Shown piece by piece: positions 21,168-40,377 of a stretch of 64,000 bases of DNA. A program made the translations under genes and the position numbers. Source of the DNA: Candidatus Krumholzibacteriota bacterium (GTDB taxonomy: Bacteria > Krumholzibacteriota > Krumholzibacteriia > JAJRXK01). The stretch lies in the NCBI GenBank assembly GCA_029262065.1, contig JAJDAC010000027.1, positions 124,001 through 188,000 of the forward strand. Reading direction: 5' to 3'. Within the stretch, counting starts at the first letter, position 1. Every line of letters starts with the position of its first letter. The notes under the pieces are model-generated. The model was given only the letters and a program-made list of their open reading frames with translations. It ran no database searches and was not told where the DNA came from.

Positions 21168-23150
21168 CTACTTCAACAGAGTGACACGACCAGAATCTAC
21201 AGCGCCCGCCGCCTCGAGGCGAACAATGTAGGTGCCACTGGCAACGCTGTTGCCGGTGTCGTCCTGGCCATTCCAGGTCACGCTGTGCTCACCGACCGCA
21301 AGGCCCGTGAGGGCGATCGTACGCACCAAGCGTCCAGCCACATCGTAGACTTTCAGCGTTGCATCACCCGCATGTTGCAACGAGAAGCGCAGCTCGGTAC
21401 GAGGGTTGAATGGATTCGGAGTGGCCTGCATGAAATACGTACCGCGCGAGGCAATGTCCTCGGCGGCCGTCACACCAAACACCACATCGGTACCGTTCAA
21501 ACCCATGTCATGACGCAAGCCGACCTCGTCGAACGCCACCACACTCAGAATGTGTACCGGAGCGCTCCGACCGTTGGTTTCGAAGTGGATCAGCACTTCG
21601 CCCGAGTACGCGTTGGACTTGGCGAATCCCAGCCGGACGAATCCCGGGAACTGCGAGTTCGTGGCCACCAGAGCCTCGGACCCCGGCGCCTCGGCCGAGA
21701 CGAAGGACATGCTCGCGGCGTCGTAACTCAGAATCACGTCCAACGCTGCCGCATCTTCCAGGTGCAAGACAACTTCTCCGGCTCCGTACCCCGAACGCGC
21801 GTACACCGTCGGCTTTGTTGCCTCACCGGGTTCTACCGCCAGGATGATACCCACGGCTTTTTGCAGGATAAGAACGATGTCGCCACCATCGATGACTCCG
21901 TCCGAGTTCATATCCGCCGCGCAGAACTCGAGGGCCGTGGGCTGGAGCAAGCCCACCGAAAAGAGCAACGCCCGAATGGCATCGGCCGAATTGACCTCGC
22001 CGTCGGGAACGACGTCACCCTTGTCGCAGCCAGTGGCGATGCTTCCCTCGAGCAAGGCCAGAGGAATGGGCTGCTGCGCCAGATCGAATGCATCGGCATC
22101 CAGGAACGATATGGGCGAATCGCCTGGAGTGCCCGTGGCCACGAACTCCAGGTTCAGCATGTCCAGATCGAACTCGGGAACGTTGACCACGTCCAGCGTT
22201 GCCATGGAAATATCGACCGTACCAATGCCCGCATTGAACTCGAGGAACCAGTTGGCGAACGGCGGAGCCAATGAAACGTTGACCAGGTCGGCCAACGCCG
22301 GATCCCAGCTGAGTAGCAGGTCGAGTCCCGCGAACTCGGCGGGGTTGCCGCTCTTGGCTACGTTCGTGCGGCGCACGGTTACCGGCACCGAAACCGGGCC
22401 CACATCGACCGTGGCCTCGCCAATATCCACCACGAGGCCATTGCCGATATCGGGATTGCATTCGGGTTCGTTGACGCAATTGATCACGAACCGATTCTCA
22501 CGCCAGCGCGCGAAGAAATTCAGATCGAAGTTGTTGTTGGTCTCGGTCCAGGCCAACTCGCCCGGCTGCGACGGCGGGCTCACCGTGTGCATATCAATCA
22601 CAAGGTCGACGTCACCTTGAGGTTGCAGCGTCAGCAAGTCGATTCTCACGACCGAAACCGGGGGGAACGCGGAAACGAACGATCCGGTTCCCACGATGAA
22701 TTCCCCGAAATTCGATGCAACGTTGATGCTGGTAGGGGGAATGAGCTGCAGCCCCAGAACCGCAACCTCGGGAGGAAAGTTCAAACCCGCTTCCCAGGCG
22801 CTCAGACCGTTGGTGAGGTTGTCGCCGGGCCGCCCGTCTTCGCCGAAGTCGATATCGGCCACCAGGTAGACCGTGAACGGGACGAACGCGGGTGTGTTGA
22901 CGTTGAAGTCGTCCCCGGTTCCATCGCTGGCCGTGTTCAACCGCAACTCACCAAACACCCGCGGGGTGTTCGTACCGGCCTTGGGATCGGATTGGGAGAT
23001 AGTGGTCGACCAGGAGTCGGCTCGGGGAACTGCGAACTGTCTAAGCGTGCCGGCGTGTGCGTCGGGACCATCGGCTGCAACAACCGTGACCGGCGTAGCA
23101 AGAAGGGGAAGGATCAGAGACATGATCAGAAGCCCGTGCCAGTGCTTCAC
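21168..23150 (-). CDS. Secreted cohesin-dockerin protein with C-terminal sorting-like domain
   Basis: 660 residues from a GTG at 23150 (AAAGGAAGG five bases upstream); an upstream in-frame ATG has no such support. Signal peptide ~1-25. Order: first cohesin-like domain (~70-225), a CVNEPECNP linker, second cohesin-like domain (~250-380), then a dockerin-like pair of calcium loops (DGEVNSADAIRALLF and DMNSDGVIDGGDIVLILQ), a third cohesin-like region, and NPFNPRTELRFSL to the end SGRVTLLK. It is the closest architectural match to the gene at 25804, on the other side of the O-antigen-ligase-like gene. Cohesin and dockerin in one chain could allow self-association; that is inference. Confidence 0.85.
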   Translation of the reverse strand: MKHWHGLLIMSLILPLLATPVTVVAADGPDAHAGTLRQFAVPRADSWSTTISQSDPKAGTNTPRVFGELRLNTASDGTGDDFNVNTPAFVPFTVYLVADIDFGEDGRPGDNLTNGLSAWEAGLNFPPEVAVLGLQLIPPTSINVASNFGEFIVGTGSFVSAFPPVSVVRIDLLTLQPQGDVDLVIDMHTVSPPSQPGELAWTETNNNFDLNFFARWRENRFVINCVNEPECNPDIGNGLVVDIGEATVDVGPVSVPVTVRRTNVAKSGNPAEFAGLDLLLSWDPALADLVNVSLAPPFANWFLEFNAGIGTVDISMATLDVVNVPEFDLDMLNLEFVATGTPGDSPISFLDADAFDLAQQPIPLALLEGSIATGCDKGDVVPDGEVNSADAIRALLFSVGLLQPTALEFCAADMNSDGVIDGGDIVLILQKAVGIILAVEPGEATKPTVYARSGYGAGEVVLHLEDAAALDVILSYDAASMSFVSAEAPGSEALVATNSQFPGFVRLGFAKSNAYSGEVLIHFETNGRSAPVHILSVVAFDEVGLRHDMGLNGTDVVFGVTAAEDIASRGTYFMQATPNPFNPRTELRFSLQHAGDATLKVYDVAGRLVRTIALTGLAVGEHSVTWNGQDDTGNSVASGTYIVRLEAAGAVDSGRVTLLK

Positions 23151-23332
23151 GTGGGCCTTCCTTTGGGCTGAATTCGAACGTACTCCTTGATGCGGGCGCA
23201 TGATTGCGCTTGGTAGTGCGCTACCAAACTGCTCCTGTTTCCCCCTACTCGTCAAGTACCAGGTGCACCATACTCGTGATCTGAACACGAGCAGCGGGGC
23301 GGAGACCTTGAAGGCATGAAAGGACCGGCATC

Positions 23333-25459
23333 GTGCACCGCTTGAATCTTCGCCACTTCATCGCCAGTACAAGCATGGCCGGTGCTGTCCTGTTCCTACT
23401 CGTGATCCCTGACTTCTTTCAACCCTACGTAACCCCCAGGGTCCTGGCGTTTCGTGTGCTTTCAGGCCTGGTTTTTTCGCTTTGGTTGGCTCTAGCCACA
23501 AGCGATCCGCGGTATCGCGAGGTCCTGCGATGGCCAGGAACCGTGGCCCTGCTGGGCCTGCTTGGTGTAACCGCGGCGGCCACGGCCTTTGGCATCGACC
23601 CGGGCCGCTCGTTTTGGGGCGACTTGGAGCGCACGGGCGGCTGGTTGACGCTTGCTCACCTGGTCGCCTGGTGGATCGCAACCGCAAGTTGCCTGCGCGC
23701 TCAGGATTGGCGGCGTTGGTTGAGTATCGCCACACTGGTGGCCGCGGCAGTGACCACGTTCGGCATCGTCAACCAATGGGTCCAGGGAACCCTGTTATCG
23801 CAACGACTCAGCACACTGAGCGGCAACCCAACATTCTTGGCGTCGTACCTTCTGGTGTGTGCGCCCCTTGCGGTTGTCTTCGCCACGGAGGGCTCGCGAA
23901 GAGTTCGAACACTATTCGCACTGGCTGGCTTGGTCATGGTGGCGGGAGTGTTTCTGACGTTTTCACGCGGTGCGCTGTTGGCGCTTGGTTGCGGGGTCGC
24001 GGTCCCTGGAGTTTGGTGGATATCGAGACAACGCGCACGCACCGTGATCACTACCGTTGGGGTCGCCGTCGTAGCCACCGCGGCGTTGGGACTCGCAGTT
24101 GCTGGCGTGGCCGACGGAAACAACCGAGGCGGATTCGGCCGGGTGTTCCAGATGGGTATGGACTCAAGCTCCGCCCAAATGAGGATTCTGGGCTGGAAAG
24201 CCGCATGGGAAGGTTTCCTGGAACGGCCGCGGTTGGGATGGGGGCCCGAGAACTACTACGCGGTATTCAACGTCCACTTCGATCCTCTGGTCCATACTCT
24301 CAGCGCCGAGGAGTCCCTGCTCGACCGCCCCCACAACCAATTCCTCGAAACGCTGTGTACAACCGGCCCGCTGGGCCTGCTTGCATTCGTGGCCTTGCTG
24401 GCATCTACCGTGGTGACCCTACGTAGAAACACCCTTCCGTTCGCAGTTCGGGGCACACTGCTGGGTTGCACGGTCGCCTACGCGGTAAACCTGTTCTTTC
24501 TGTTCGACACCCTGCTGCCAACCATCGTGTGGCTGGCGCTGCTGGCCTACGCGCACCGGCTGGGGCATCCGTTTCCGGATGGTCCCGAATTGCGTGTACC
24601 AAGGTCCTTGATCGTCGCGGCATTGGTGGCCTGGATTTTCATCGGGTGGCAAACGGGCCTTCGCCCGGCCATTGCAGCCCTGGACACCGCACGGATGGTT
24701 CAATCCCCCTCTGTCTTTACGAGCGTTGAACAGCTCCTCCGCATCGAATCCAGGAACAATTGGAGCCTGGTCTCCCCAGCCATGATGCTGTCCGACCGGC
24801 TACGAAATCAACTGATGGACGGAGACGGATTTTCGACGGACCAGGCGCAGGCCGTGGATCAACTGATCGGGTTCTTCGATCGCGAGTGGACAAGACGACC
24901 CTTGGATGTACGCGTGGGCCTGGAACTCATGGAACTTGGCAACCTGAGATACCTCATGCACGCCAACACCAAAGATCTGGAGCGCGCCGAAGCGAACTAT
25001 CATCGACTGCAATCGATTTCCGCGACGCGTGGTGATGTCCATCTGCTGGCTGCACAATCGAGCGTGGGAGCGGGACGATACGCGCAAGCCCTGGAACGCG
25101 TGGAGCGCGCGCGAAGACTGAACCCACACTGGCCTGACCCCCACTGGTTCGCCGGCGTGTATTCCGTGGAGGCTGGCATGGATACCACCGCTGCCGTGCT
25201 TGACATGCGACGTGCGCTTGCCCTGCGATACAAGGTGAAACCGCCGGACATGATCCACGTGGAGTCGCTGGCCAGGAAAGCCGCGACACCCGAACTGGCC
25301 TGTGAGTTCTGGATAGAATGGACGCGCTTGCATCCCGGCGACCTCGCCGCGTGGAACCGAATCGTGACCCTCGCAACACAACTGGACGACGAACAACTGG
25401 CAACTCGGGCGCAAGACCACGCCAAAGCACTACAGGCCCTGGTACCGACCCAACGATGA
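23333..25459 (+). CDS. O-antigen ligase/polymerase-like membrane protein with C-terminal TPR-like region
   Basis: 708 residues, GTG start with AAAGGA ~7 bases upstream. Residues ~10-430 give about eleven transmembrane segments. The Wzy_C/WaaL signature is present: FLTFSRGALLALG, then a long periplasmic loop with RPRLGWGPENYY and RPHNQFLETLCTTGPLG. From ~470 the protein is soluble and helical with TPR-like pairs (GRYAQALERVERARRLNPHWPDPHW). Wzy/WaaL enzymes transfer or polymerise lipid-linked sugars on the periplasmic face; the TPR tail may bind a partner. It is not in a glycan cluster: both neighbours encode C-terminal-signal surface proteins. Confidence 0.83.
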   Translation: MHRLNLRHFIASTSMAGAVLFLLVIPDFFQPYVTPRVLAFRVLSGLVFSLWLALATSDPRYREVLRWPGTVALLGLLGVTAAATAFGIDPGRSFWGDLERTGGWLTLAHLVAWWIATASCLRAQDWRRWLSIATLVAAAVTTFGIVNQWVQGTLLSQRLSTLSGNPTFLASYLLVCAPLAVVFATEGSRRVRTLFALAGLVMVAGVFLTFSRGALLALGCGVAVPGVWWISRQRARTVITTVGVAVVATAALGLAVAGVADGNNRGGFGRVFQMGMDSSSAQMRILGWKAAWEGFLERPRLGWGPENYYAVFNVHFDPLVHTLSAEESLLDRPHNQFLETLCTTGPLGLLAFVALLASTVVTLRRNTLPFAVRGTLLGCTVAYAVNLFFLFDTLLPTIVWLALLAYAHRLGHPFPDGPELRVPRSLIVAALVAWIFIGWQTGLRPAIAALDTARMVQSPSVFTSVEQLLRIESRNNWSLVSPAMMLSDRLRNQLMDGDGFSTDQAQAVDQLIGFFDREWTRRPLDVRVGLELMELGNLRYLMHANTKDLERAEANYHRLQSISATRGDVHLLAAQSSVGAGRYAQALERVERARRLNPHWPDPHWFAGVYSVEAGMDTTAAVLDMRRALALRYKVKPPDMIHVESLARKAATPELACEFWIEWTRLHPGDLAAWNRIVTLATQLDDEQLATRAQDHAKALQALVPTQR

Positions 25460-25803
25460 CCTGATTTGTTCACCGTATCGTCGCCCATTGGCCCACATCA
25501 CAGGCTTTCGCGTGAAACCACGCCTCCCACGTCACAATTCACTTCTTGACGACCAGCACGATTCGGCCAGAAACTACCCAGGCAATTCCCTCACTTCAGA
25601 AAACACCGAGCGGGCAGTCCCGGGAGCCACGTCTCCATCCTCAGCCACTGCTCCATGCGCATCGGTCCCGCGCATGCCCGCTTGCGAGATTGCTTTCGCC
25701 GTCAACCCGCCCGGTCCTTCCACGCGGTCGACGCAAGCACCATGTCTCTCCGACGAAACGCGATCGAGTCTCGCGGCGCGTCGAACTTCCGCAGGAGCAA
25801 GGT
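25460..25803. other. Non-coding stretch upstream of the second cohesin-dockerin gene
   Basis: 344 bases without a convincing gene. The downstream frame is open here but lacks any protein-like pattern before the signal peptide at 25804. A TTGACG occurs near 25538, but I see no matching -10 element at the expected distance. No hairpin of note. Confidence 0.5.
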
Positions 25804-27714
25804 ATGACCAGAACCATCGCCGCAATTCTCGTCGGCGCTCTTCTCGCTACGCTGGGCGCCCTGACGCCACCACCCGCCGCGCTCGCGCAATCATTCGGAC
25901 TGCCGCTGGGAGACCTCTACCCAACGTTCGTCGAGAACGATCGCGTCTCTACCGCCGACGTCCCCGCGTTCACTCCGTTCGACTGGTACCTCGTCACCGA
26001 GTTCAGCTTCGAAGACGTGGGAATCTCCGGGCAGGATTTCGTGAATGGCATGGGCGGGTGGGAAGCGCGGATCGACATTGACCCCAACATCATTGTCACG
26101 CAGCAAACGCTCCAACCCATCAGCTCGATCAACGTGGGTATCCTGCCCAACTGGATCGTGGGAACGGGTTCGCTGGTTGCTGCGGCTTCGACACCATTCA
26201 CACTCGTCCGGTTCTCGGGGCTACTGGTGAGTTTCGACATCGAGGACCTGGTGGTAGATCTGGGAGCCCCCGTACCATCGTCGTTCGACGTGCTGGGCGG
26301 ACCCGGCCCCGTCCCAGGCTGGGTCGAGTGGGTAGCCAGCGGCGAGTGTGCCGATCCATGCCTGCGACCCTTCGTGGACGCCAGTTCCCGCCTCGTCGTC
26401 AATTGCGTCAATGCACCCGAGTGCAATCCGGTCCAGGGCAACGGGATCGAGATCGCAGTTGGCAACGGTACCGTCGACGTCGGTCCAGTCGAAGTACCCG
26501 TCACGGTGCAGCGAACCACTATTCTCAAGGCGGGTGACCCTTCCCGGCTAGCCGGCCTGGATCTGGTGATCAACTGGGATCCCGCGCTGGCTTCGCTCGA
26601 CGCCGTGTTGCTCGCTCCCGCCACGAACAACTGGTTCATGGAGTACAGTTCGACTGCGGGTACCGTGGACATTTCCATGGCCAGCCTCAGCGAAATCGAC
26701 ACACCGCTCTCACCCCTGGATGTCCTGCGACTGCAGTTCACGGCCACGGGCGTGGAAGGCGAAACACCCTTGAGCGTCGTCGATGCCGACGCGTTCGACG
26801 TCGAGCAAATGCCTATCGACATCACAACAAGCAATGGATCGTTGACCACCGGTTGCGAAAAGGGTGACGTGATCCCCGACGGTGAAGTCAACTCGGCCGA
26901 TGCCATCCGGACCCTCCTGTTCACGGTCGGGACCCTTCAGCCAACACCGCAGGAATTCTGTGCGGCCGACATGAACTCGGACGGGATTATTGACTCGGGC
27001 GACGTGGTGCTGATTCTTCGCCTGGCCGTGGGACTCCCCGCGGCCAAGAACATTGCCTTGATTCAGCCAACTGTGTTCGCACAATCGGGCCCAGAACTAG
27101 GCGACGTTGTTCTCCACGTCGATCAAGTGGCTGGCCTCGAAATGGTCATGAGCTTCGATCCCACGCAGGTAAGCTTCGCTTCAGCCACCGCGCCTGGATC
27201 GGGCGGCTTGATCACGGTCAACAAGGATGACCCGGGCGTCGTTCGCATGGCGTTCGCGAAGTCCAGTCTGTGGCAGGGAGAAATCCACCTGAAGTTCGAC
27301 GTGCAACAGCCGCACAGCGTACTGAACCTGTGGGCAGCGCATGCGTTCGATGAAGCCGGTGCGCGGCACATCGCCGAACTCTGGACCAACACGTTCGTAT
27401 TCGGCGTAACCGCGGCCGATGATACACCCACGGCGGCCAACTCACGTTTCCTTGGCGCCTATCCCAACCCGTTCAATCCCAACACTGAGCTACGATTCTC
27501 GCTGGCCCGGGCGGGCGATGCTTCGCTGAAGGTGTTCGATGCGGCGGGTCGCCAGATCCGGCAGTTCGATCTGCGGGGACTGGCCGAAGGCGAACACAGC
27601 GTTACGTGGAACGGTCGAGACGATCAGGGAGCGACCGTGGCCAGCGGCGCATACCTGATCCAACTGGACGCGGACGGTCGCGTCGACACCGGCCGCGTGG
27701 TCATGCTGAAATAG
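25804..27714 (+). CDS. Secreted cohesin-dockerin protein with C-terminal sorting-like domain
   Basis: 636 residues from the ATG at 25804 (AGGAG seven bases upstream; signal peptide ~1-29 ending ALAQ). Order as in the gene at 21168: first cohesin-like domain (~35-185), CVNAPECNP linker, second cohesin-like domain (~215-345), dockerin-like loops (DGEVNSADAIRTLLF, DMNSDGIIDSGDVVLILR), third cohesin-like domain (~420-530) and NPFNPNTELRFSL to a terminal RVVMLK. The paralogue lies on the opposite strand with the ligase-like gene between them. The protein is probably surface-exposed; its partner is unknown. Confidence 0.86.
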   Translation: MTRTIAAILVGALLATLGALTPPPAALAQSFGLPLGDLYPTFVENDRVSTADVPAFTPFDWYLVTEFSFEDVGISGQDFVNGMGGWEARIDIDPNIIVTQQTLQPISSINVGILPNWIVGTGSLVAAASTPFTLVRFSGLLVSFDIEDLVVDLGAPVPSSFDVLGGPGPVPGWVEWVASGECADPCLRPFVDASSRLVVNCVNAPECNPVQGNGIEIAVGNGTVDVGPVEVPVTVQRTTILKAGDPSRLAGLDLVINWDPALASLDAVLLAPATNNWFMEYSSTAGTVDISMASLSEIDTPLSPLDVLRLQFTATGVEGETPLSVVDADAFDVEQMPIDITTSNGSLTTGCEKGDVIPDGEVNSADAIRTLLFTVGTLQPTPQEFCAADMNSDGIIDSGDVVLILRLAVGLPAAKNIALIQPTVFAQSGPELGDVVLHVDQVAGLEMVMSFDPTQVSFASATAPGSGGLITVNKDDPGVVRMAFAKSSLWQGEIHLKFDVQQPHSVLNLWAAHAFDEAGARHIAELWTNTFVFGVTAADDTPTAANSRFLGAYPNPFNPNTELRFSLARAGDASLKVFDAAGRQIRQFDLRGLAEGEHSVTWNGRDDQGATVASGAYLIQLDADGRVDTGRVVMLK

Positions 27715-27729
27715 CTTCAACACGTCGAA

Positions 27730-27765
27730 GGGCCGGAGCGCAGTTGCAGAAGCGCGCTCCGGCCC
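27730..27765 (+). terminator. Hairpin after the cohesin-dockerin gene
   Basis: Arms GGGCCGGAGCGC and GCGCTCCGGCCC pair over 12 bases around a 12-base loop, starting 16 bases after the stop. There is no T-tract, as with the other GC-rich hairpins here. It separates this gene from the next at 27842. Confidence 0.6.
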
Positions 27766-27841
27766 AGACGTCTGAAAGGCAAGTATTTCCCGCACTCCTA
27801 GCTGCACGACACCTCTGTAATCCGCACCCTGGAGGAACTCG

Positions 27842-30800
27842 ATGATCGGCCGGTTGCTTTTGGCTGGGCTTCTTGTCCTTTCTACCACCGAGGCAACACC
27901 AGCGTGGGCTGAGCCTGACATCCAGGTTGTTCCGTCTACTTCGATCGACGAGTCGCTGTTCACCGGTGAATCGTCCAACCGGTTGCTCACGATCTCAAAC
28001 CTGGGATCGTCCGAGCTGGTCTGGCAAATAGAACGACGACCAACCCTCCCACTGACCGATCTGACACCACCCAACGGACCAGGCCGTGACTTCGACGGCA
28101 CGTTGTTCGTTCCGCCCACGCGGGGTGCGATCATCAGCGCCAACCTGGGAAAACTCGATGGTATCGACATTCTCTGGGACCTCTCACAGGGCCAAGCGCT
28201 GTCCTCGTTCTGGTCGACACTCATTGACGACCTCACATTGCGAGGAGCCAAGGTTACCGAGAAGCAGCAGACCATCACGTCGACGCTACTCGATGGCTTC
28301 GACGTATTCTGGTCCACCGACGTAACTGGGTCCTGGAGTGCGACCGAACGAGCTGTTCTGAAAACGTGGATCGAGAACGGGGGCAGTCTGCTGCTGGGGG
28401 GTGACAACCCAGAAACCGTGGACGCCTTCAACCAGCTACTGCAGGAAGTGGTGAGCGGACTGAAGCTGTCGCCGGTAGACGGGACACCCGGACTGACCAC
28501 CGATATCACGAGCCACCCCACGACCGACGGCGTGGGTGCGATCCTGCTCGACGGAAACGTCGCCCACATCACCGAGATTCTTCCGCCCGCCGGCCGGCTG
28601 TTCGGTGACGTGTCGGGTCTGCCAGCGGGGGCATGGTCGGAGGTGGGCCTTGGAAGAATGATCGTCATTACCGACGAGCTTTTCGCCAACGGTCGCATCG
28701 GCGCAGCCGACGGGCAGCTGTTTGGCAATCAGATCTTCGACTGGTTCAATCGTCTGGGCTGGCTTGCGACCGGGCAGACCGCCGGCACGCTGGCCCCGGC
28801 TGCTTCCGTCACGGTGGACGTGGGCTTCGACGCATTCGGACTAGCCGGCGGCATCTACGAAGCCGAGTTGGTGGTCCTGAGCAACGACGGCGCTCAGAGC
28901 GAAGTCACGGTTCCCGTGACCCTCACCGTGGTTGGGGCTCCCGACATAGCGGTAGAAGGGACACCACTGGATTTTGGCGACGTGGTCGTTGGGGAATCAT
29001 CAACGTTGCCGATCACCGTACGCAATCTGGGGTCGGAGGTGCTGACCGTCACTTCGGTTTCGTTGGGCGACTCCGCGTTCTCGGCCAGTCTCACGGCATT
29101 CACGGTTGCACCCGGCGAGGCCGAGGTCGTGGACGTGACGTTCGTCCCGGCTGCCCCGGGCATGCGGGCAACCGCCCTTCTCATGTCCAGCGACGACCCC
29201 GACGAAGGCACTGTGATTGGGTCCGCTACCGGCACCGGCATCCTGCCCCCAGCCACGATCGAGCTGGCGGCGGGTTTTGCCGCGGGACAGAGTGGAGATG
29301 TTGTCCTGGTGCCGCTCATTGCAACCGACCTTGTTGCGGCGAAGAACGGTGATGCCTCTCGCCTGGCGGGGTTGGATCTGCTGATGGACTGGGATCCGGC
29401 GGTCGCGACATTGCAAGACGTGCTCGTAACACCAGCCACCGCTACATGGGCATTGCAGTTCAACGCCTCGAACGGACAGGTGGACATTGCCACCGCGGGA
29501 CTCGATGTGGTGGACGTGGTGTCCGACGGAGTCGAGTTGCTCCAACTCGAGTTTGTGCTTGGCGGTCCGCCCGCGATCATTCCTTTGATGGTCTCGCAAA
29601 CCCAGTTGTTCGACCTGGACCAGGTGGGCATCGATCACTTGACCGTGGACGGTCAGCTGAGCGTGGTCTCAGCCTCCGACGTATTGCAACTGGCCCTGGG
29701 CAATTCATCGGGACAGCCCGGGCAGATGGTCGACGTACCTTTTTCGGTCCAGCGTCTGTTCGCAGCCAAGGCCGGCGACCCATCCCGACTGGCCGGGATC
29801 GATTTCGAGGCCAGCTGGGACTCCACGGCGGCGGCGTTGGTGGGTATGACGCAGACTTCCGCCACCGCCAATTGGACCGTCTTGTCCAACCCAATGGCGG
29901 GACACGTGGACGTGTCCATGGCCGGACTCGACGTGGTCGACGTTCCCACCACGGGAATCGACATGTTGCATTTGAGTTTCCAACTCTTGGAGGAAGGAAT
30001 CGATACTCCGCTCACGTTGTTCGAAACGCGAGCGTTCGACGTGGTTCAGGAACCCATCGTTCATCAGACGCAGGACGGATTCCTTTCCGCCGATTGCCTC
30101 AAGGGCGACGTCGTTCGCGACGGCGAAATCAACTCCGCCGATGGTATTCGAACGTTGCTGTTTGCCGTTGGGTCCCTGGTGCCGTCGCCACTCGAGCTTT
30201 GCGCGGCCGACATGAACTCGGATGGCGTCATCGACGTTGGGGATGTGGTTTTGGTGCTACAGGCGGCCGTGGGAGAGCTTCCGCCCGCTTCGAGTGAAGT
30301 GCTGTCGCCGCGGGTCTATGCCTTTGCCGCGGGTCTCGACGCCATGCACCTGCGACTGCAGGAATCCGCGGGCGTGGAACTGGAGCTCAGTTTCGACCCC
30401 CAGACCGTTGACTTCATTGGAGCCCAGGCCCTGGGGTCGGGCACATTGGTCGCGGCCAACGAAGTGTCCGACGGATTGGTCCGACTCGGTGTAGCCAGTT
30501 CGCTTGCGCAGGACAGCGAGATCGAATTGCAATTCACCGTGACTGGCTCCCATGCAACCGTTCAAATCTCCAATGCTTCCGCGTTCGACTCCAACGGCGA
30601 GAAGTTACCGTTGGACTTGCTCAACGGCTCGTTCACGTTCGGCGTTACCGCGGCCGACGACGTGCCCACGGTGGGTCCCACTCGCTTGCTGCGCGCCATG
30701 CCCAACCCATTCAACCCCCGCACTCAATTGCGCTTCGTCTTGGCCGCGGCCGGTGACGCAACGCTCGGCATATACAACGTGGCCGGCCGACTGGTACGCA

Positions 30801-30952: not shown

Positions 30953-31409
30953 ACATGGCGGCCACGTAGTCTGCGAATCCCTTCCCGAAGAGCGCCTTCC
31001 ATCCGTCGGCGATGCCCTCCAGTTGAGCGTCATTGATTCTGCCGACGATCGAATCGCTTATGGTCAGGACCGAGCCCTTTCCTTGGGGCGCGAGCGCGAT
31101 CTTCAACATCGATACGTTTGGTCCGCCCCAGTCGGCCGCTGCGTGCCCGACCAGATACAAGCGCGAGCCAGGCGTGACCATTTGTACCGTGTACCAGACG
31201 AGTTCGTTTCCGTCGGGAGTTTCTTCCACCAACGAACCGCCGGCGCGCGTTTCCAGTCGCACCACGCTGCCTTCTCCGGTGGCCCGGAAGTCCGGCAACC
31301 ACCACTTGTCGATCTCCTCGGTCAACGCGCGCCAAGCCTTCTCGGGTGACGCTCGCAGTTCGACTTCGAGTTCGAACTGTCCTATCTGTGCCGGTTCTAC
31401 TGCGGCCAT
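30945..31409 (-). CDS. SRPBCC (AHSA1-like) domain protein
   Basis: 154 residues from the ATG at 31409 (GGAGG four bases upstream). The START/Bet v1-like fold of the AHSA1 group is recognisable from FELEVELRASPEKAWRALTE, the WWLPDF region and a long C-terminal helix (GIADGWKALFGKGFADYV). These proteins bind hydrophobic ligands; the function of most bacterial ones is unknown. The 5' end overlaps the preceding arsR-type gene by 13 bases. The ArsR-SRPBCC pair is a common bacterial two-gene unit. Confidence 0.84.
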   Translation of the reverse strand: MAAVEPAQIGQFELEVELRASPEKAWRALTEEIDKWWLPDFRATGEGSVVRLETRAGGSLVEETPDGNELVWYTVQMVTPGSRLYLVGHAAADWGGPNVSMLKIALAPQGKGSVLTISDSIVGRINDAQLEGIADGWKALFGKGFADYVAAMST

Positions 31410-31732
31410 GGTTCCTCCTGGTCTTCGACGAAACTCTTCAGGCGATTCACAGCCTGGGTGAGGTGACGCACCTGTCCATGGATCCATCGTCCGCAGACAC
31501 GGTCGATGGGTACGGGGTTGATGTAGTTCCAACGATGGCGCCCCTCGCGGCGCACCACCACCAGTCCCGCATCTTCGAGAACGCCCAGATGCTTCATGAC
31601 CGCGGTGCGGCACAGGTCAGAATGCTTTGCTACCAACTCTCCGGTGGTCAGAGGCTCTGACGCCAGATCGTCCAGCAGTGCACGGCGGGTCGGGTCACCC
31701 AGGGCTTTCCATATGAGATCTTCGTTAGTCAT
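31397..31732 (-). CDS. ArsR-family winged-helix repressor
   Basis: 111 residues from the ATG at 31732; an in-frame ATG at 31750 adds six. Winged helix: IWKALGDPTRRALLDDL, the recognition helix CRTAVMKHLGVLEDAGLV and the wing VVVRREGRHRWNYINP. No CxC metal motif is present in the third helix, so it belongs to the non-metal ArsR group that controls an adjacent SRPBCC gene. It precedes and overlaps that gene. A perfect palindrome covers both candidate start codons, which fits autoregulation. Confidence 0.85.
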   Translation of the reverse strand: MTNEDLIWKALGDPTRRALLDDLASEPLTTGELVAKHSDLCRTAVMKHLGVLEDAGLVVVRREGRHRWNYINPVPIDRVCGRWIHGQVRHLTQAVNRLKSFVEDQEEPWPQ

Positions 31733-31750
31733 GTCACTATATGGTGACAT
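31731..31750. promoter_or_regulatory. Palindromic operator candidate at the arsR start
   Basis: ATGTCAC and GTGACAT are perfect 7-base inverted arms separated by TATATG. The site covers both candidate arsR start codons. Its position and symmetry fit binding by a dimeric ArsR protein, with a very short or absent leader on the transcript. Confidence 0.55.
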
Positions 31751-31968
31751 ATATCCAGGGCACAGTCAACCGACTTGATTGGTCTCCGGATGAAATCAGT
31801 AGGTGATTGGGTAGGTGGTCGCGCTGTCAGCCGTGAGAGAAGCTGGACGAGCGCGACCACAGATTGCGCGTGCGCGAGACGCTGCGCAATTCGAAACGCA
31901 CGCCCCCCGTGCCGGAGGACGGCGCTCGCTGATCATCGATCGGAAGAGCTATACCGCGAAGTTGCGAA

Positions 31969-32103
31969 CTAGGCGGAAGTCTCCGGTGCGGTCTCCGTGG
32001 TGCTTTCCTGGGTGTCGGCTTCGGACGACTCGGAAAAGTCCGGCGTGCAACCGTAAAGGGCGATCAAGGAAAGGATCGAGAGCATCGCGATGAACTTGCG
32101 CAT
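31969..32103 (-). CDS. Very small lipoprotein (44 residues)
   Basis: Begins MRKFIAMLSILSLIALYGC: a full lipoprotein signal with Cys at position 19. A 25-residue acidic Ser/Thr/Glu tail without predicted fold follows. GAGG lies ~6 bases before the ATG. Length and composition resemble entericidin-like or small envelope lipoproteins, but no family was recognised. It is followed by ~220 bases without a gene and preceded by another lipoprotein gene. Confidence 0.65.
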   Translation of the reverse strand: MRKFIAMLSILSLIALYGCTPDFSESSEADTQESTTETAPETSA

Positions 32104-32229
32104 CTTTGACCTCGGAGTCAGAAGGAACGTCACTGTCCGAGCACCTGTTGGCACTCGGTCTCACTTATTGTTCACCAAGCATAGACTGTGGCACCAGAAC
32201 AATACAAGCGCCGATGCTCTGTCCGAGGC

Positions 32230-32778
32230 CTAGTGGCCGTTTTCTACGCTTTCGGTGGATGCTTCAGCTTCCTTGATGGCGTCAGACATCGATTCGCCCA
32301 GGTCTTCCATGGCGTCGGCCATACCGTCAGCCATACCCTGCATCGCTTCCTGCATGCCGTCGGCCATGGCTTGACCCATCTGTTCGAAGGCGCCGCCGAA
32401 CATACCCTGCATCATGCTCTGGGTGGTCTGGTCCAGGTCGACCAGCCACTCACCGTTCTTCTCCACGAGAATGGTCGAGAACGAGATGGTCATGGTGGCG
32501 TCTTCTTCGCCGGCTACCACCTTGGTTTCGATCTCGGCGCCGTCGTCGGTCTTCGTCAACTTGCCCAGCGTGAGATCCTTCGGTCGCTTGTCGCTGTCGA
32601 GATTCAGCTTGGCGTTTTCCGACGGCAGGCTCAGTGCCTCGACGGTGGCCGCATCGCCTTCCATGGCGGCATTCCAGAACTGATCGGCAATTTGCTCCGG
32701 GCCAGCACCGCTCTGGGAACAGCCCACGGCAATCAGCGCGAAAAGGCCAACCACGGCGAGTAGGGAGGGAGTGCGCAT
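32230..32778 (-). CDS. Lipoprotein with DUF4878-like domain and Met/Ala/Gly-rich amphipathic tail
   Basis: 182 residues from the ATG at 32778 (GAGG upstream). Signal ending ALIAVGC, Cys ~20. Residues ~25-120 (PEQIADQFWNAAMEGDAATV ... NGEWLVDLDQTT) match the NTF2-like DUF4878 pattern of small lipoproteins. From ~123 a ~50-residue helix repeats M-x-x-G/A-M-A-D-G-M units: QMGQAMADGMQEAMQGMADG then MADAMEDLGESMSDAIKEA. This is strongly amphipathic with one Met or Ala face. The tail may bind membranes or metal (inference). Confidence 0.72.
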   Translation of the reverse strand: MRTPSLLAVVGLFALIAVGCSQSGAGPEQIADQFWNAAMEGDAATVEALSLPSENAKLNLDSDKRPKDLTLGKLTKTDDGAEIETKVVAGEEDATMTISFSTILVEKNGEWLVDLDQTTQSMMQGMFGGAFEQMGQAMADGMQEAMQGMADGMADAMEDLGESMSDAIKEAEASTESVENGH

Positions 32779-32874
32779 TTTGGGATCCTCTTGCAGATAT
32801 GAACCGTAAGCCGGGAAAGAGAACCCGGCCGACAAAAACTCATTGGTCAATTGCAAGGTGTGTGCCGACGGAGA

Positions 32875-33393
32875 TCACTCTGTCGCGGTTGGCGGAAAAA
32901 CGCAGACCATGAGGATCTCGTCGTGCGATTCCCCGTCGACCACGATATAAGCCGGTTCCCTCCCGTATTCAACGAAACCCAGGCTCAGATACAACTCACG
33001 CGCCGACGTGTTGGTTGCGATCACGCCCAGGTATACCTGGCGAAGGCCGGGCATTGCCCTCGACCGGTCGAGAGCGTGTTGCAACAACTCTCGGCCGATG
33101 CCGCGCCCGCGCCAGGCTTCATCGACGTACATTCCCCAGAGAAACGCCTTGTGGGCACGTTTGATTTTCTGTTCGCGTAGCACGCCGACGACGCCCACGA
33201 GGGTTTCGTTGTCGAACGCACCCAGCACGAAGCGTCCCGGTGTGGGGCTCAGTCGTTGCGCCACCTCATCCGGCGATCGACGGCGTTCTTCTTCGTAGCT
33301 CGACGCAAAAGCCGTGGGTTGTTCGGCAAGCCCGCGCAGACGAATGTCCTGGAACCTGTCGGCATGGGTTTGGTCGAGCAGCTGAATGTTCAC
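32875..33393 (-). CDS. GNAT-family N-acetyltransferase
   Basis: 172 residues from a GTG at 33393 (GGGAGG ~10 bases upstream; an in-frame GTG at 33411 is the alternative). The acetyl-CoA-binding motif A is clear: GMYVDEAWRGRGIGRELLQHAL with R/Q-x-x-G-x-G/A, followed by the VYLGVIATNTSARELYLSLGF motif B. It has the length and order of small-molecule or protein N-acetyltransferases; the substrate is unknown. Confidence 0.84.
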   Translation of the reverse strand: MNIQLLDQTHADRFQDIRLRGLAEQPTAFASSYEEERRRSPDEVAQRLSPTPGRFVLGAFDNETLVGVVGVLREQKIKRAHKAFLWGMYVDEAWRGRGIGRELLQHALDRSRAMPGLRQVYLGVIATNTSARELYLSLGFVEYGREPAYIVVDGESHDEILMVCVFPPTATE

Positions 33394-33453
33394 CTCTCGA
33401 CGGCCTCCCACTTCTTGACAACATCCACGCCTGGTCTCACCGGCCTGAAACCC

Positions 33454-35517
33454 CTACTTCAAGAGAACCATCTTGCGCTCGTAGGAACCGCCCGGGAACT
33501 GGAATCGATAGAAATAGATTCCGCTGGCCAGCCGACTGCCGGCATCATCACGGCCGTCCCAACGAGCCGAGTAATTTCCCGCCGTGGCGTAGTTTCGATC
33601 TACCAGAGTGCGCACCAGCGCGCCGGCCGCCGAGTACACCCGCAAACTGGCGTGCCCGGGCTCCACCAAGGAGTACTCGATCCGGGTCTGTGGGTTGAAC
33701 GGATTGGGTACGTTCTGACCCAGACGATCCCGCAACGTCGGGAGATCCGGCGCAGCAGTAGGCGCGTTCACAGTGCCCGTGATGGTCCGTGCACATGGGC
33801 TTCCCTCGTTGAAGAACGCCCGGCTCAGGGTAACGGTGGTCGAGGTTCCGAGCAGCGGCACCAGAAGTTGAACCTCGACCTCGACGAGCGGGAGAGTTCC
33901 CGTCAACGGATTCGCACCCGCGTAAACGACGATGAGCTGCCCCGGCAAGCTGTTCGTGACCACGGAGCCACCGCTCGACAACGTACCCACGTTGGATGCG
34001 CTGTTCATCTGCAGTCTCGATGCGTCGTAGTTCAACGTCAGCTCGTAGCCGAAAATCCCCATCCCCGTAACATCACGGTCGATCTGGACGGGCAAGAGGG
34101 TTGGGCTGAAAGAGAGCAATGTGGCCGTGGGTGCAGAGATGTAGAAGTCACACACATCGATGGTGCCACTCACGTCGCTGGCCCCCACGTTGTCGACCAC
34201 AGAAACCTCGGTTTGGCCTCGGCCGATGGCGGTGAACAAACCAGTGGCGTCGATCGACCCCACTGCACCGTCGACGACGCTCCAGACCAGCGGCGGCACG
34301 GTGATTCCGGACACCCCGAACTGCACTGTCTCCCCCACGACCAGGGTGGCCGTGTTGGGAGATATTGTGATCACGGGGAACGCATTCACAGTGACGAAGC
34401 CGTTGGTATTGGCCGATGGATAGACTTCGTTGAAGAGCGCTTCCTGGATGGTGATGCTGGAAGACGACGTGGCCGTGGGTTCGATCTGAAAGTCCAACAG
34501 GACCAGCGTCCCGGCCGCGGTGAGAGGATTCACACCCGCCATGGAAACAATGATCTGACCCGCCGAGACATTCACGGCCGGGGTCGCCCAGCCCGCACCA
34601 CTGACAAGCGTGCCCGCCGTGGTTACGCCCAACGCGGTGACCCGCGATGCCGTGTACGTCAACCGGAACTCGGCCGATGTGATCGCAAACGGGCCGGGGT
34701 CGGTGATGATCAGGGGAACCTGCACCACATCGCCTGGCGCACCGGCGACGGTGCCGGCGGTCAACCGCAACGCACGCACGTCCACCACGCCACTGGTGGT
34801 GTCCATGAGTCCCATATCGTCGGTCGAAGTTACCGCCACCGCACCTGGAGCAAGACCGTTCAAGACCGCGTCGCCCGCAAAGTCGGCGACCGCGGGATTG
34901 CTGGAAGAATACGTGAACGGCGGCGTGCCCCCGGAAGTTGTGAACGCCAGGGCCTCACCCACCGCGATCTCGCCACTGTTGGGCGAAACGGCAATAACGG
35001 GAAGTGCCGTGGCCGTGAGCAGTCCATTGGTAGTGCCGGTTACCGCGGGCGAACCCTCGTTGAAGAGTGCGTTCGCCAAAGTAAGCGTGGTCGAACCGGC
35101 CGTCGGTCCCAGCGTGAACAGAAGGTTCACCAACGTTCCAGTTCCCGACAGCGGCTGGGTATTCGACCCCACTACCGTCACGGTGCCCGGGCCAAAGCTC
35201 ACCGTAGGCGCAGCCCAACTGTCGGTAAGCGTGCCCGTGCCATCGGTGGTCGCGAATGAGGCTCTCGTCGCCGACCAGGTAATCGTCACTTCGTAGGAGA
35301 CAACTCCCAGCCCGGTCACGTCGTCAACGGTTATGGGAACCGAGACCGTGTCGCCCACGAATCCCGCGCCAGTGCCCACGGACACCGACACGGCCTGCGC
35401 GACGCCGATTCCCATACCGTGGCTGACGATCAAGGCAACCAAGATCATGGCCGCCGTAACGCCGGCCTTCATGCGTTTCGTTCGTAGTACTGTTGTTCTT
35501 GAATTCACGGTCAGCAT
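33454..35517 (-). CDS. Secreted protein with three cohesin-like domains, Ig-like linkers and sorting-like C-terminus
   Basis: 687 residues from the ATG at 35517 (GGGAGG upstream). The signal sequence follows a positively charged start (~24-42, ending AQA). Three cohesin-like domains at ~43-155, ~240-355 and ~455-570 share T-x-x-(A/D)-x-(R/S)-(A/V) and the closing L-x-x-A-x-F-N-E-x-x-P strand (ALFNEGSP, ALFNEVYP, AFFNEGSP). Big_2/Ig-like linkers (PNSGEIAVGEALAFT, PNTATLVVGETVQFG) separate them. The C-terminal NPFNPQTRIEYSL module ends ERKMVLLK. No dockerin is visible. It lies 36 bases downstream of the beta-helix gene, so co-transcription is likely. Confidence 0.84.
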   Translation of the reverse strand: MLTVNSRTTVLRTKRMKAGVTAAMILVALIVSHGMGIGVAQAVSVSVGTGAGFVGDTVSVPITVDDVTGLGVVSYEVTITWSATRASFATTDGTGTLTDSWAAPTVSFGPGTVTVVGSNTQPLSGTGTLVNLLFTLGPTAGSTTLTLANALFNEGSPAVTGTTNGLLTATALPVIAVSPNSGEIAVGEALAFTTSGGTPPFTYSSSNPAVADFAGDAVLNGLAPGAVAVTSTDDMGLMDTTSGVVDVRALRLTAGTVAGAPGDVVQVPLIITDPGPFAITSAEFRLTYTASRVTALGVTTAGTLVSGAGWATPAVNVSAGQIIVSMAGVNPLTAAGTLVLLDFQIEPTATSSSSITIQEALFNEVYPSANTNGFVTVNAFPVITISPNTATLVVGETVQFGVSGITVPPLVWSVVDGAVGSIDATGLFTAIGRGQTEVSVVDNVGASDVSGTIDVCDFYISAPTATLLSFSPTLLPVQIDRDVTGMGIFGYELTLNYDASRLQMNSASNVGTLSSGGSVVTNSLPGQLIVVYAGANPLTGTLPLVEVEVQLLVPLLGTSTTVTLSRAFFNEGSPCARTITGTVNAPTAAPDLPTLRDRLGQNVPNPFNPQTRIEYSLVEPGHASLRVYSAAGALVRTLVDRNYATAGNYSARWDGRDDAGSRLASGIYFYRFQFPGGSYERKMVLLK

Positions 35518-35553
35518 TGGAGGTCCTCCCTTCTGCTGGTGATGGGCCAACCG

Positions 35554-38500
35554 CTATTTCAGAAGAAGCATCTTTCTGGTGGCCTGGTTTCCTCCGGCCT
35601 CGAGGCGGTAGAGATACACTCCGCTGGCCATGGCTCGGCCGGCATCATCCCGACCGTTCCAGGTGACCAGGTGTTCTCCGGCCGCTCGGGGACCTTCCAC
35701 CAAGTGACGCACCGCGCGACCGCGCAGGTCATAGACAACCACCCGCACCTGGGCCTCGTCGCCTACTTCGCCCGGTACCGAAAATACGATGTTGGTCGAA
35801 GGATTGAAGGGGTTCGGTTGGTTCTGATCCAGTCGCCACGACTGCCGTTGCGGTGGTGTACCCGTGGGCCCCGTGGCAATTTCCTGCTCGTTGAGGCGGG
35901 CAAAGATCAGATCGACATCGACGACCGTGGTACCCGCGAGCGTATCGGCGCCGCGAATCAGAAGCTCCACGGCCGGCGCCACGGGAAGGAACTGAGCCGA
36001 AGCCAGGGCAATGCGAACCTCGCCGTCGACCTGGTTCCAGAACACGGTCGCCCCCTGCGCCGCCGGACTCAGAACCACGTCTTCAATGGACACCTGACCT
36101 GGATCGAACGTCAGGCGGTATTCGTGGCCCAGCAGCTCACCCGACCCACTCACGCCGATGGGAACGGAAACCAACTGCCCCGGATCGACCGAGAACGATG
36201 GGAAGCTGACCTGGAAATCTCCAGGCTCACTGCCCGCGTATTTCTCACGTACCGCCGATCCCTTCGTGGGCACCGATTCGAATGCGCACGGAAGAAACGC
36301 GTCCAAGCCAGCCACGTAGCGCAGGATATTGGCTGCATCGAGCGTGCTGTGCAGGCCCGAGCAGTCGACGTCGGCCAGCAGGGTCTGCAAAGGGCTGAGT
36401 GAAATGAGCAGGGCCAGATCTTGCAGGACAAGCGAGGAATCAAAAGCCCGAACGTCGCCATTCAGACTCACATCGCCCAACAACACGTTCTGGATTCCGG
36501 TGGTGTCCCACATGCCGTAGTCGACCATGTCGGTCACCACGTCACCCAGACCACCCGGGTTGTAGAAACCGCCGGTTCCCGTGTCGTCCGAAGCATCCAA
36601 TGGACCGGTTGCGTCGCCCCACCAGTTGTTGGTGGCATCGACCACGAAACTCATGCCCGTGTTCTTGATACCGTGAAACGAATTGCCGTAGATGTCGCAG
36701 TCGTTTACGTGACCCTTGGTAGGATCTCCCGAGGCGCCTACGAAGTTCACGCCAACGCCGTTGTTGGTGAAGGTGCAGTCGTCGACCTGCGGATTGGCGT
36801 TGGTCACGTTGAGCGCGCCGACGGCCGAGCTGTTGGTTGCGTATCGGAACACGCAGTTGGAAAACCGGGTGCTGTCGTCGATCGCCTCGTTCTCGATCTT
36901 CACGCTGCCCCAACGAAGCGTCGAAGGGTCGGTGTCCGTGCCGTCGTTGTTGGTGTCGCCGCCGTAGAAATCGTCCCGGGGGGAAGTAAATACGATCAAC
37001 CCCTCGGGGTCGGGCGTGCCCTCGGCAATGAGACCTCTTCGTACGATGATGTCAACACTGCTGCTGAGCGGTTTGATGACCACCCCCGGCTCGATGCGAA
37101 GAATGGCACCAAGGCCCGCGGTCAGATCACTCACAAGGATGTACGGGATGCTCTCGGTCTGGGCCATGCTGCGCTTCTTCCACAATGCGTCAGATGCCAA
37201 CGTCTCGCCGAGAATGCCCAGAGCGTGATAGGCGTTGTTGGGAAGAAATACGTTGCCCGCGAAGATCGGGTCGGCGCCCAGCGACATGACGATCGGCGTT
37301 GTCAGATGATTGCCGAAGGTCGAGTTCACGATGACCGGTTGGCTGTCACCCTCAATACGAATGCCATAGTTCCAGTTCGTATCGAACGTACAGTTGGAAA
37401 CGGTTGGCGACGCGGTTTGCATGAGCACTGCCTGCCCTTGCCAGCCCGCGTACGACAATATGCATTCGTTCAAAATGCTGTTGGCGTCGTCACTCACGTC
37501 CTGGAAAATGATCTGTTGCCAATCGAACTGGGCGGGTGTCGTGAGACTACCGTCGTTATTGGTATCGGCTGGGTTCCCGTAAGCATCGTCATTGATCGAC
37601 GTGAATACGATTGGGTCGGCCACCGTACCAAACGCCGACAGTGCGCCAGCGACGGTAATGAGACTCTGGAACGGGCCGCCCGAAGTCCTGCCCAGTTTGA
37701 GTACGACACCGGGGGAGATCGTCAGCTTCGCGCCGAAGTTCACGGTCAAGGTGGTGCCAACGAGGGTCCGCGTGATATTCGTGTACCCCGCAACGTTCCA
37801 CTGCGAAACCGTCAGGTCCTGCCCAATAGGCTCACCGATGAGTCCCAGTACGTCGTAGCTGTTGTTGTCGTACACATTGCCGCTGAACGTGGGATTGGCC
37901 AGGATCGACTTGGATATTGGTGCCCGCGACGTCAGTCGGAACAAGTTGTTCTGCACCACTGGATCCGACTGGTTCTGCATCCACAGGCCGTAGTTGTTCA
38001 GTTCGAACTCGCAGTTCTGGATGGTTGGCGACGCCGACTGCATCTCGATGACGCCGCGATTGCCGCTGCTCGCGAAACGGAACAGGCAATTCTCCAGGGT
38101 ACTGTTGGCGTCGATCGTACTGGCGTTGTAACGAATCTGGTTCCAGTTGCCCGATGCCGGTGACGTAGCCGACCCATCGGTATTGCTATCACCGCCAAAC
38201 GAGTCGTCCAGAATGGACGTGTATACCACCAGCTGGTCGGGAGCCACGCCGTTCATGGTGAGTCCACCGTTGCAATCGATGGGTCGTTGGCCGCTCAGCA
38301 CCTTCACTACCACGTCGGGCTCGATGGTCAGCGTCGAACCACTGCCGATGGTCAGCGTACCCAGATGCAGGTATGGGAAGAACTCGGTGAACTGAGGAGG
38401 TCCTCCCACGGTGACCTGTTCCAGGATGGCGTCCTGGGCCAGGGTCTCCGAGAGAATCCCGATGGCGTGGTAGAAATTCTGGTTGAAGGTGTTTCCCGAA

Positions 38501-40377
38501 TACTGGGGATTCGCTACGACCGAGGTGGCCAACGGCACCTCATCGTTGTTGAAGAAGTCGTTGTCGCTGATGATCGGTGAGGCGGTGCCGTCGGTGCGTA
38601 TGCCGGTTTCGTTGGTATTGAACTGGCAATTGGAAATGGTGGGCGCCGAGCTGTTGCACCAAACCGCGCCGCGATAGGCGGTCGATGTCTGCTGCCCACC
38701 GTACGAGAGGACGCAGTGATTCAGGATGCAGGTCAGATCGTCGGACGTGGCCGAGAACTTGATGTAGCCCCACTGTCCATCATCGGGCACCGTAGCTGTT
38801 CCATTGCCCTCGGTGTCGGCCGGATTGCCAACGTCGTCGTCGTACTGCGACGTGAAGACAATCTCGTTGCCGGCGCTGGCATTGGCAATGAATGCGCCCT
38901 GCACATCGATGAACGGATAGGAGCTGGGATTGTTGAATTTCAGCACGACGCCCGGATCGATGGTCAGGGTCGAACCGAACGAGACGATCAGGTTCTCTTC
39001 GAGCCAGTAGGTGATGTTGGTGAACCCCGCGACCGTGCGTTGGGGCAAGCTGCCGTTCACACCAATCGTCTCACCGATGATGCCAATGGCCGACAGGCCA
39101 ACATTGGTGAAGGTGTTGCCGGTGTATGTAGGGTTCGCTGTCACCGACTGGAAGAACGGCGTATTGGTGGTGTTGCTCACCGAACAGTTGCTGATGACCG
39201 AGGCCGATGTTCCCTGTTGCTCGATGCCGTAGGTCGAATCAGAGATGGTCAGGTTGTCCAGAGGCGGGCTCGTATTCACACATCGCACGATGCCTTCAGA
39301 GGTAGTTCCACCAAAGCGAATCGTAGCGAAGGAAACGGAACCGGTACTTCCATCCTGGAATTCGATCTGGCTCCAGTCGCCCTTGGCGGGCGAGGTGGTC
39401 GATCCGTCGTTGTTGGTATCGTTGGGCGTGCCCGCGTTGTCGTCCTTGAACGAGGTGACGATGATCTCATCACCCGGGGTTGCGGTGCCATCCATGATCA
39501 GCGTGCCCTGCACGAAGATATCCACGCCGGCCTTGGGCTTTATGACAATGCTGGGCTCTATGGTAAGGGTGCCACCCGGTGCGATCGTGACATCACTCAG
39601 CAGGATGTAGACGAAGTTGGATATGGGAGAGGCGCCAAGGGTTGCGCCGCGTACCCTGAGGGTGTTGCTGCCGCTCAGCGTCCCGCCCAACAGGCCGATT
39701 GCGTCGAAGCCGTTGTCAGCGGTGGACTCGAAGGCCAGGTTGTCGAACACCGGATCCGCTTCGAGCTCGATGGCAACCGGCACATCGGTCATGGCGTTGA
39801 TCCCGGTGTTGCTCAGAAACGGATCCGATGCTCCGTTGCAGCGAACGCCTTGGTAGGCCGCAGCCAGTTCGCAATTGATGACCGAGGGGCTGGCGTCGTT
39901 ACAGATGATGGCCGCGGTGTTGGACCGTCCCGCGTATTGAATGATGCATTCTTCCAGGGTACTCAGGTCAGAGGCCGTGTCGTTGAACTGGATCCACTTC
40001 CAGTCTCCCGTGGTGGGAACTGTCACTCCCCCGTCGCCGTTGGTGTCGTCTCCGCCCGGCGCGGGTGAATTGTCGTCACGAATCGAAGTGAAATAGATGG
40101 GGGCGATCGACGTTCCAACCGCTTGCAGTTCGCCGTTGATTGTGAGTCCCAAGTTCAAGTTGAATTTCAACACCACGCCGGGATCGATGGTCAGCGTTAC
40201 ACCCGAGTTCACGGTCACGTTGCCCGTGACCTCGTAGATGGCGCCGCCGACGGTGTCGAGGGTGGTGTTGGTGGAAATGGTGCCTGTCAGGATCTTCTGA
40301 GCCCAGCTGTCAGATGGCGCAGACAGGAAGATGGTGACGAGAAGAGCGGCGAGGCTAATCGGACCATAGGAGCGCAT
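35554..40377 (-). CDS. Giant six-repeat beta-helix surface protein with dockerin, cohesin and sorting-like domains
   Basis: 1607 residues; AAAGGA upstream of the ATG; signal peptide 1-26. Six repeats of ~200-210 residues begin with (T/S)LTI(D/E)PGVV(L/I)K near residues 61, 269, 467, 679, 882 and 1089. Each contains an insertion D-D-x-x-G-x-x-x-D-T-N-x-D-G, then a parallel beta-helix segment with I-x-N-C-x-F/L turns. After ~1290 come dockerin-like loops (GDVSLNGDVRAFDSSLVLQD, DVDCSGLHSTLDAANILRY), a cohesin-like domain (~1385-1500) and NPFNPSTNIVFSV to the end RKMLLLK. Right-handed beta-helices of this size are typical of polysaccharide-binding or -cleaving surface proteins; no catalytic residues could be assigned. 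Confidence 0.85.
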   Translation of the reverse strand: MRSYGPISLAALLVTIFLSAPSDSWAQKILTGTISTNTTLDTVGGAIYEVTGNVTVNSGVTLTIDPGVVLKFNLNLGLTINGELQAVGTSIAPIYFTSIRDDNSPAPGGDDTNGDGGVTVPTTGDWKWIQFNDTASDLSTLEECIIQYAGRSNTAAIICNDASPSVINCELAAAYQGVRCNGASDPFLSNTGINAMTDVPVAIELEADPVFDNLAFESTADNGFDAIGLLGGTLSGSNTLRVRGATLGASPISNFVYILLSDVTIAPGGTLTIEPSIVIKPKAGVDIFVQGTLIMDGTATPGDEIIVTSFKDDNAGTPNDTNNDGSTTSPAKGDWSQIEFQDGSTGSVSFATIRFGGTTSEGIVRCVNTSPPLDNLTISDSTYGIEQQGTSASVISNCSVSNTTNTPFFQSVTANPTYTGNTFTNVGLSAIGIIGETIGVNGSLPQRTVAGFTNITYWLEENLIVSFGSTLTIDPGVVLKFNNPSSYPFIDVQGAFIANASAGNEIVFTSQYDDDVGNPADTEGNGTATVPDDGQWGYIKFSATSDDLTCILNHCVLSYGGQQTSTAYRGAVWCNSSAPTISNCQFNTNETGIRTDGTASPIISDNDFFNNDEVPLATSVVANPQYSGNTFNQNFYHAIGILSETLAQDAILEQVTVGGPPQFTEFFPYLHLGTLTIGSGSTLTIEPDVVVKVLSGQRPIDCNGGLTMNGVAPDQLVVYTSILDDSFGGDSNTDGSATSPASGNWNQIRYNASTIDANSTLENCLFRFASSGNRGVIEMQSASPTIQNCEFELNNYGLWMQNQSDPVVQNNLFRLTSRAPISKSILANPTFSGNVYDNNSYDVLGLIGEPIGQDLTVSQWNVAGYTNITRTLVGTTLTVNFGAKLTISPGVVLKLGRTSGGPFQSLITVAGALSAFGTVADPIVFTSINDDAYGNPADTNNDGSLTTPAQFDWQQIIFQDVSDDANSILNECILSYAGWQGQAVLMQTASPTVSNCTFDTNWNYGIRIEGDSQPVIVNSTFGNHLTTPIVMSLGADPIFAGNVFLPNNAYHALGILGETLASDALWKKRSMAQTESIPYILVSDLTAGLGAILRIEPGVVIKPLSSSVDIIVRRGLIAEGTPDPEGLIVFTSPRDDFYGGDTNNDGTDTDPSTLRWGSVKIENEAIDDSTRFSNCVFRYATNSSAVGALNVTNANPQVDDCTFTNNGVGVNFVGASGDPTKGHVNDCDIYGNSFHGIKNTGMSFVVDATNNWWGDATGPLDASDDTGTGGFYNPGGLGDVVTDMVDYGMWDTTGIQNVLLGDVSLNGDVRAFDSSLVLQDLALLISLSPLQTLLADVDCSGLHSTLDAANILRYVAGLDAFLPCAFESVPTKGSAVREKYAGSEPGDFQVSFPSFSVDPGQLVSVPIGVSGSGELLGHEYRLTFDPGQVSIEDVVLSPAAQGATVFWNQVDGEVRIALASAQFLPVAPAVELLIRGADTLAGTTVVDVDLIFARLNEQEIATGPTGTPPQRQSWRLDQNQPNPFNPSTNIVFSVPGEVGDEAQVRVVVYDLRGRAVRHLVEGPRAAGEHLVTWNGRDDAGRAMASGVYLYRLEAGGNQATRKMLLLK

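Follow-up and report, generated by a model that had tools for sequence, protein, structure and literature searches.

The question raised by this locus is whether cohesins and dockerins encoded together in a group of secreted proteins form a surface assembly other than a cellulosome, and which chain would bind which. Cohesin-dockerin pairing is known chiefly from cellulosomes. We have analyzed a stretch of 64,000 nucleotides (G000:C27:124001-188000, referred to here as the window) from a genome of 5.77 Mb in 59 contigs, and compared it with a phylum sample of 80 genomes belonging to one class only. Five proteins of the window were studied, P0001, P0003, P0004, P0005 and P0006 (Table 1).

Table 1. 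Location of the five proteins and their modules in the window.
Feature	Coordinates	Strand	Description and evidence
P0001	21168..23288	-	secreted N-domain, cohesin, dockerin, divergent cohesin-like, FlgD/T9SS tail
P0001 cohesin (coh1)	22038..22445	-	profile match to solved cohesins, 4.7e-11
P0001 dockerin, conserved Cys pair	21834..22034	-	profile match to solved dockerins
P0001 divergent cohesin-like domain (coh2)	21477..21818	-	hhalign to coh1 95%, 1.8e-8
P0003	25804..27714	+	architecture as in P0001
P0003 cohesin (coh1)	26437..26844	+	profile, AlphaFold2, Foldseek
P0003 dockerin	26848..27048	+	Pfam, profile; pLDDT about 86-94
P0003 divergent cohesin-like domain (coh2)	27061..27402	+	model, hhalign to coh1
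P0003 FlgD_ig/T9SS type A sorting tail	27451..27711	+	Pfam, TIGR04183
P0004	27842..30952	+	HYDIN/choice_anch_D Ig domain, two cohesins, dockerin, divergent cohesin-like, FlgD tail
P0004 first cohesin (coh0)	29243..29659	+	alignment with coh1 family; second match in P0004
P0004 second cohesin (coh1)	29672..30085	+	coh1 alignment, profile
P0004 dockerin	30089..30289	+	Pfam, alignment, profile
P0004 divergent cohesin-like domain (coh2)	30302..30640	+	hhalign to coh1
P0005	33454..35517	-	three cohesins, Big_2 domains, FlgD tail; second gene of conserved pair
P0006	35554..40377	-	beta-helix surface protein, dockerin, divergent cohesin-like, FlgD tail; first gene of conserved pair
P0006 dockerin	36277..36489	-	profile match to solved dockerins (4uyp 3.6e-11)
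P0006 divergent cohesin-like domain	35842..36219	-	hhalign to P0005 family 2.8e-5, prob 74%; blastp
P0006 FlgD_ig/T9SS tail	35557..35817	-	Pfam, TIGR04183

Cohesins and dockerins on one chain

P0001, P0003 and P0004 have in common the order coh1, dockerin, short coh2 and FlgD_ig tail, and are 45-52% identical to each other over the ~350 residues preceding the tail. Their single-sequence Pfam scores were marginal, both for the dockerin (22.6, 23.0 and 20.8 bits, respectively, with a cut-off of 22.9) and for the cohesin (17.4, 23.3 and 14.8 bits, cut-off 24.1), so the case for these modules rests on profiles and conservation. A profile of nine dockerin segments matched the solved cellulosomal dockerin 2y3n (2.3e-6) plus several others, and a profile of ten coh1-type segments matched solved cohesins. 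The coh2 profile is related to that of coh1 and no match to a solved cohesin was found for it by sequence, hence we consider coh2 a divergent relative; it also matched PkwA at 5.8e-4.

The model of P0003 obtained with AlphaFold2 (14 sequences) had a pLDDT of about 82-97 across most of the coh1-dockerin-coh2 segment, with three helices in the dockerin and low values in the N-terminal 200 residues. In a Foldseek search with this model the top PDB match was the Archaeoglobus non-cellulosomal cohesin 2xdh (TM 0.81 by target length), and many clostridial cohesins ranked below it. Together with the cohesin profile matches, this rules out a plain Ig fold for coh1. The modules are cohesins and dockerins, not plain Ig folds, with coh2 and the cohesin-like domain of P0006 related to cohesins at the level of profiles only. 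The original prediction had placed both kinds of module in P0001, P0003, P0004 and P0006, and all four do carry them, with the qualification that Pfam is marginal for the first three and that the dockerin of P0006 (see below) is detected only by profile.

This architecture is found three times in the window, with further copies on contigs C44 and C48 of the same genome. Counted among the relatives, the one-chain type appears in families f1 (G003 and G002) and f5 (G070 and G072). A Wzy_C gene (O-antigen ligase-like, with TPR) is located at 23333-25459, between the paralogues P0001 and P0003, and three NHL-repeat proteins are encoded at 42869-44026, 44093-45466 and 49229-51838, the last one with a FlgD tail.

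A conserved pair of beta-helix and triple-cohesin genes

P0005 (698 aa, its likely start being the ATG at 35517, which is preceded by a purine-rich stretch) was predicted to have three cohesins and no dockerin. The cohesins are clear by Pfam (65.6 bits, 7e-18), and no dockerin was found in it by the same search. P0006 contains a right-handed beta-helix of ~1,260 residues. Its dockerin had no match in single-sequence Pfam, and a profile of 8 P0006-related segments identified the solved ScaB dockerin 4uyp; for its cohesin-like domain, no match to a solved cohesin was found by sequence.

We searched the whole class and read the loci. Both types of gene were found in seven genomes (G000, G009, G010, G018, G026, G070 and G071, from families f1, f3, f4 and f5), and in every one of them the P0006-type gene lies immediately upstream of the P0005-type gene and is encoded by the same strand. 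In four of them (the window, L051, L052 and L096) the next open frame starts straight after the TAG stop and in the same frame. The P0006-type proteins are 57-62% identical across about 1,160-1,610 residues in three genomes. Besides, in G048 a truncated cohesin gene comes after a more distant P0006 relative, the P0005-type gene of G019 is cut by the contig end, and for a P0006-type segment in G003 no P0005-type gene was found among the matches listed or directly downstream.

Judging from this gene order, P0006 and P0005 form a conserved two-gene unit that is probably co-transcribed. The conserved adjacency points to pairing between chains, and supports a functional linkage of the two proteins rather than their contact. 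We regard the pair as a stronger finding than the one-chain architecture. It also corrects the original prediction, in which no scaffoldin gene was recognised nearby: P0005, adjoining P0006, is a scaffoldin-like protein. A read-through model of P0006-P0005 (TAG as Gly, 11 sequences) gave the dockerin with low confidence (pLDDT about 30-50), and Foldseek on this model returned mostly generic Ig-chain matches, with cohesins further down the list.

Cohesins and dockerins were found at other loci too. Four relatives (G036, G032, G024 and G018; L056-L059) have a separate cluster with a gene for a single-cohesin secreted protein and, downstream, one for an S8 subtilase-type peptidase (930-945 aa) with dockerin and FlgD tail. 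On contig C41 of the window genome (L017) two dockerin-bearing proteins adjoin, one a clear M43 peptidase and the other with weak metallopeptidase matches. In G064, a 1579-aa protein (L099:81-4817, possibly a contaminant contig) has a strong dockerin, with a cohesin-like segment after it and a tail of the T9SS type. A dockerin scan of named genomes detected only non-close relatives, and the four that were read had no evident cohesin.

Dockerin loops and relative conservation

The dockerins consist of two duplicated calcium-loop/helix repeats, as in dockerin type I, with loops that deviate at one ligand position. Ligand position 3 of loop 1 is occupied by V or I in P0001, P0003 and P0004, and position 9 by Arg in P0006. 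Calcium-dependent binding to cohesins is a prediction here. Two Cys, one ahead of each loop, are invariant in nine sequences (P0001, P0003, P0004, L040, L046, L016, L020, L044 and L041), and a disulfide between them is possible.

Averaged over mutually related pairs, with no statistical test applied, identity was 49% for the dockerin, 26% for coh1, 26% for coh2 and 43% for FlgD across 28 pairs of one-chain proteins, and 70% for the dockerin, 60% for the preceding 400 residues (the end of the beta-helix), 42% for the cohesin-like domain and 52% for FlgD across 21 P0006-type pairs. The dockerin was the module with the highest identity in 23 of the 28 one-chain pairs. This pattern fits a dockerin under binding constraint. 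We also examined the recognition residues to which the original prediction had pointed. Positions 10, 11, 14, 17 and 18 of loop 1, the putative recognition sites, were mostly steady inside each of the two dockerin families and different between them (SAILL in 4/5 versus A[YF]SLQ in 4/4), which suggests two specificities.

Export

The C-terminal FlgD/T9SS-like module predicted for P0001, P0003, P0004 and P0006 was recovered by Pfam (FlgD_ig), and TIGR04183 (T9SS type A) was above the cut-off in all five proteins. A 2354-aa frame of the genome matches SprA_N, so that both parts expected for T9SS type A cargo, a C-terminal sorting domain and a secretion apparatus (here SprA), are represented, and the five proteins would be exported by this route. 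At least 150 FlgD_ig matches were found in the genome, with scores for 150 out of 300 candidates. This number rules out the tail as a feature special to the five proteins, and with SprA present it looks like the organism's general export tag.

Possible assemblies

We propose, with about even confidence, a non-cellulosomal, T9SS-exported cohesin-dockerin assembly at the cell surface, with P0006 and P0005 as partners and P0001, P0003 and P0004 as adaptor-like chains. The P0006 dockerin would bind the P0005 cohesins, and up to three beta-helix proteins might be held on one small P0005 scaffold. In the adaptor-like proteins, the dockerin would pair with a cohesin of another chain, either a sibling or another protein, and the first cohesin would receive another dockerin, the short coh2 being more likely a spacer than a receptor. 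What we observed are the modules and their common arrangement, the conserved order of the genes, the presence of SprA and the relative conservation, and from these we infer co-transcription, export route, binding, partner choice and surface location. Against this assembly we have counted the loop 1 lacking a position-3 ligand in P0001, P0003 and P0004, the Arg in that of P0006, and the P0006-type segment of G003, for which no P0005-type gene was seen among the matches listed or directly downstream. A larger version, in which a T9SS-exported lattice that plays no part in the breakdown of polysaccharides uses the pair to display giant beta-helix proteins on the three-cohesin scaffold while the one-chain proteins polymerise around it, appears unlikely to us.

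The same ligand-poor loop 1 would suit a dockerin that binds no cohesin and, stabilised by calcium, acts as a structural spacer from one beta-sandwich domain to the next, the chains being ordinary modular T9SS surface proteins. The invariant Cys pair could lock such a fold, and many proteins end in a cassette with this same order of dockerin, cohesin-like domain and FlgD. We consider this rather doubtful, however, since no other module is as well conserved as the dockerin, its recognition positions are steady, and a cohesin gene is kept beside the P0006-family gene. If the dockerin does bind, it might fold back onto its own chain, on coh1 or, via a short linker, on coh2; the two modules do adjoin on one chain in two families, and the coh1-dockerin-coh2 segment of P0003 was modelled mostly with high pLDDT. 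Yet the linkers on both sides look short and both coh1 and coh2 are far less conserved than the dockerin, which disfavours coh2 in particular as its receptor, and we find such a clasp very improbable. A special case of the proposed assembly is head-to-tail association, where the dockerin of P0001, P0003 or P0004 would bind coh1 of the next chain to build a fibre or lattice. Three paralogues with very similar dockerins are clustered, both partners are present on one chain and coh1 is a good cohesin, but its weak conservation leaves this special case with a low probability. Of the surface lattice or clasp originally predicted, therefore, a self-associating assembly is possible and the clasp with coh2 is disfavoured.

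In this small and sparsely sampled phylum, the conserved, adjacent genes for a dockerin protein and a triple-cohesin protein offer a defined pair for expression and testing, and pairs of the P0006-P0005 type could supply new orthogonal pairs for protein engineering.

Comparison with known systems

A cellulosome has dockerin-bearing cellulases on a scaffoldin that contains a cellulose-binding module (CBM). We found no GH9 in the genome, and Pfam detected no CBM in any of the five proteins. Among the further dockerin proteins of the genome that were read, Pfam identified peptidase-like, PL14-like and VWA proteins and some devoid of an enzyme domain, none of them a cellulase. Given the lack of GH9 and the nature of these dockerin proteins, the assembly is not a cellulosome, although it may work in a scaffold-like way.

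Having both modules on one chain is less unusual than originally assumed, when cohesin and dockerin were said to be on different proteins in cellulosomes. Adaptor scaffoldins such as ScaB of A. cellulolyticus combine cohesins and one dockerin in a single chain and join two assembly levels (PMC4959524), and the chains described here likewise carry both modules. Unlike adaptor scaffoldins, they have a T9SS-type tail, a divergent cohesin-like domain after the dockerin and no detected CBM, in a genome where GH9 was not found. In the same way, some proteins of ANME archaea combine one dockerin with up to five cohesins (PMC9012536), and neither these nor the Archaeoglobus non-cellulosomal proteins, to whose cohesin 2xdh the coh1 fold is close, are tied to cellulose. 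The system described here differs from both: it belongs to a bacterium, its export tails are of the T9SS type, and it includes the conserved pair of beta-helix and triple-cohesin genes. In Cloacimonadota a surface cohesin-dockerin complex has been inferred (PMC8542988), and Candidatus Stygibacter of that group resembles the present case in having dockerin proteins together with a cohesin scaffold whose C-terminal domain is for attachment to the surface. Its scaffoldin is a protein of 3,755 aa with carbohydrate-binding domains, accompanied by dockerin-bearing enzymes, whereas here the counterparts are a 698-aa three-cohesin protein and a beta-helix protein.
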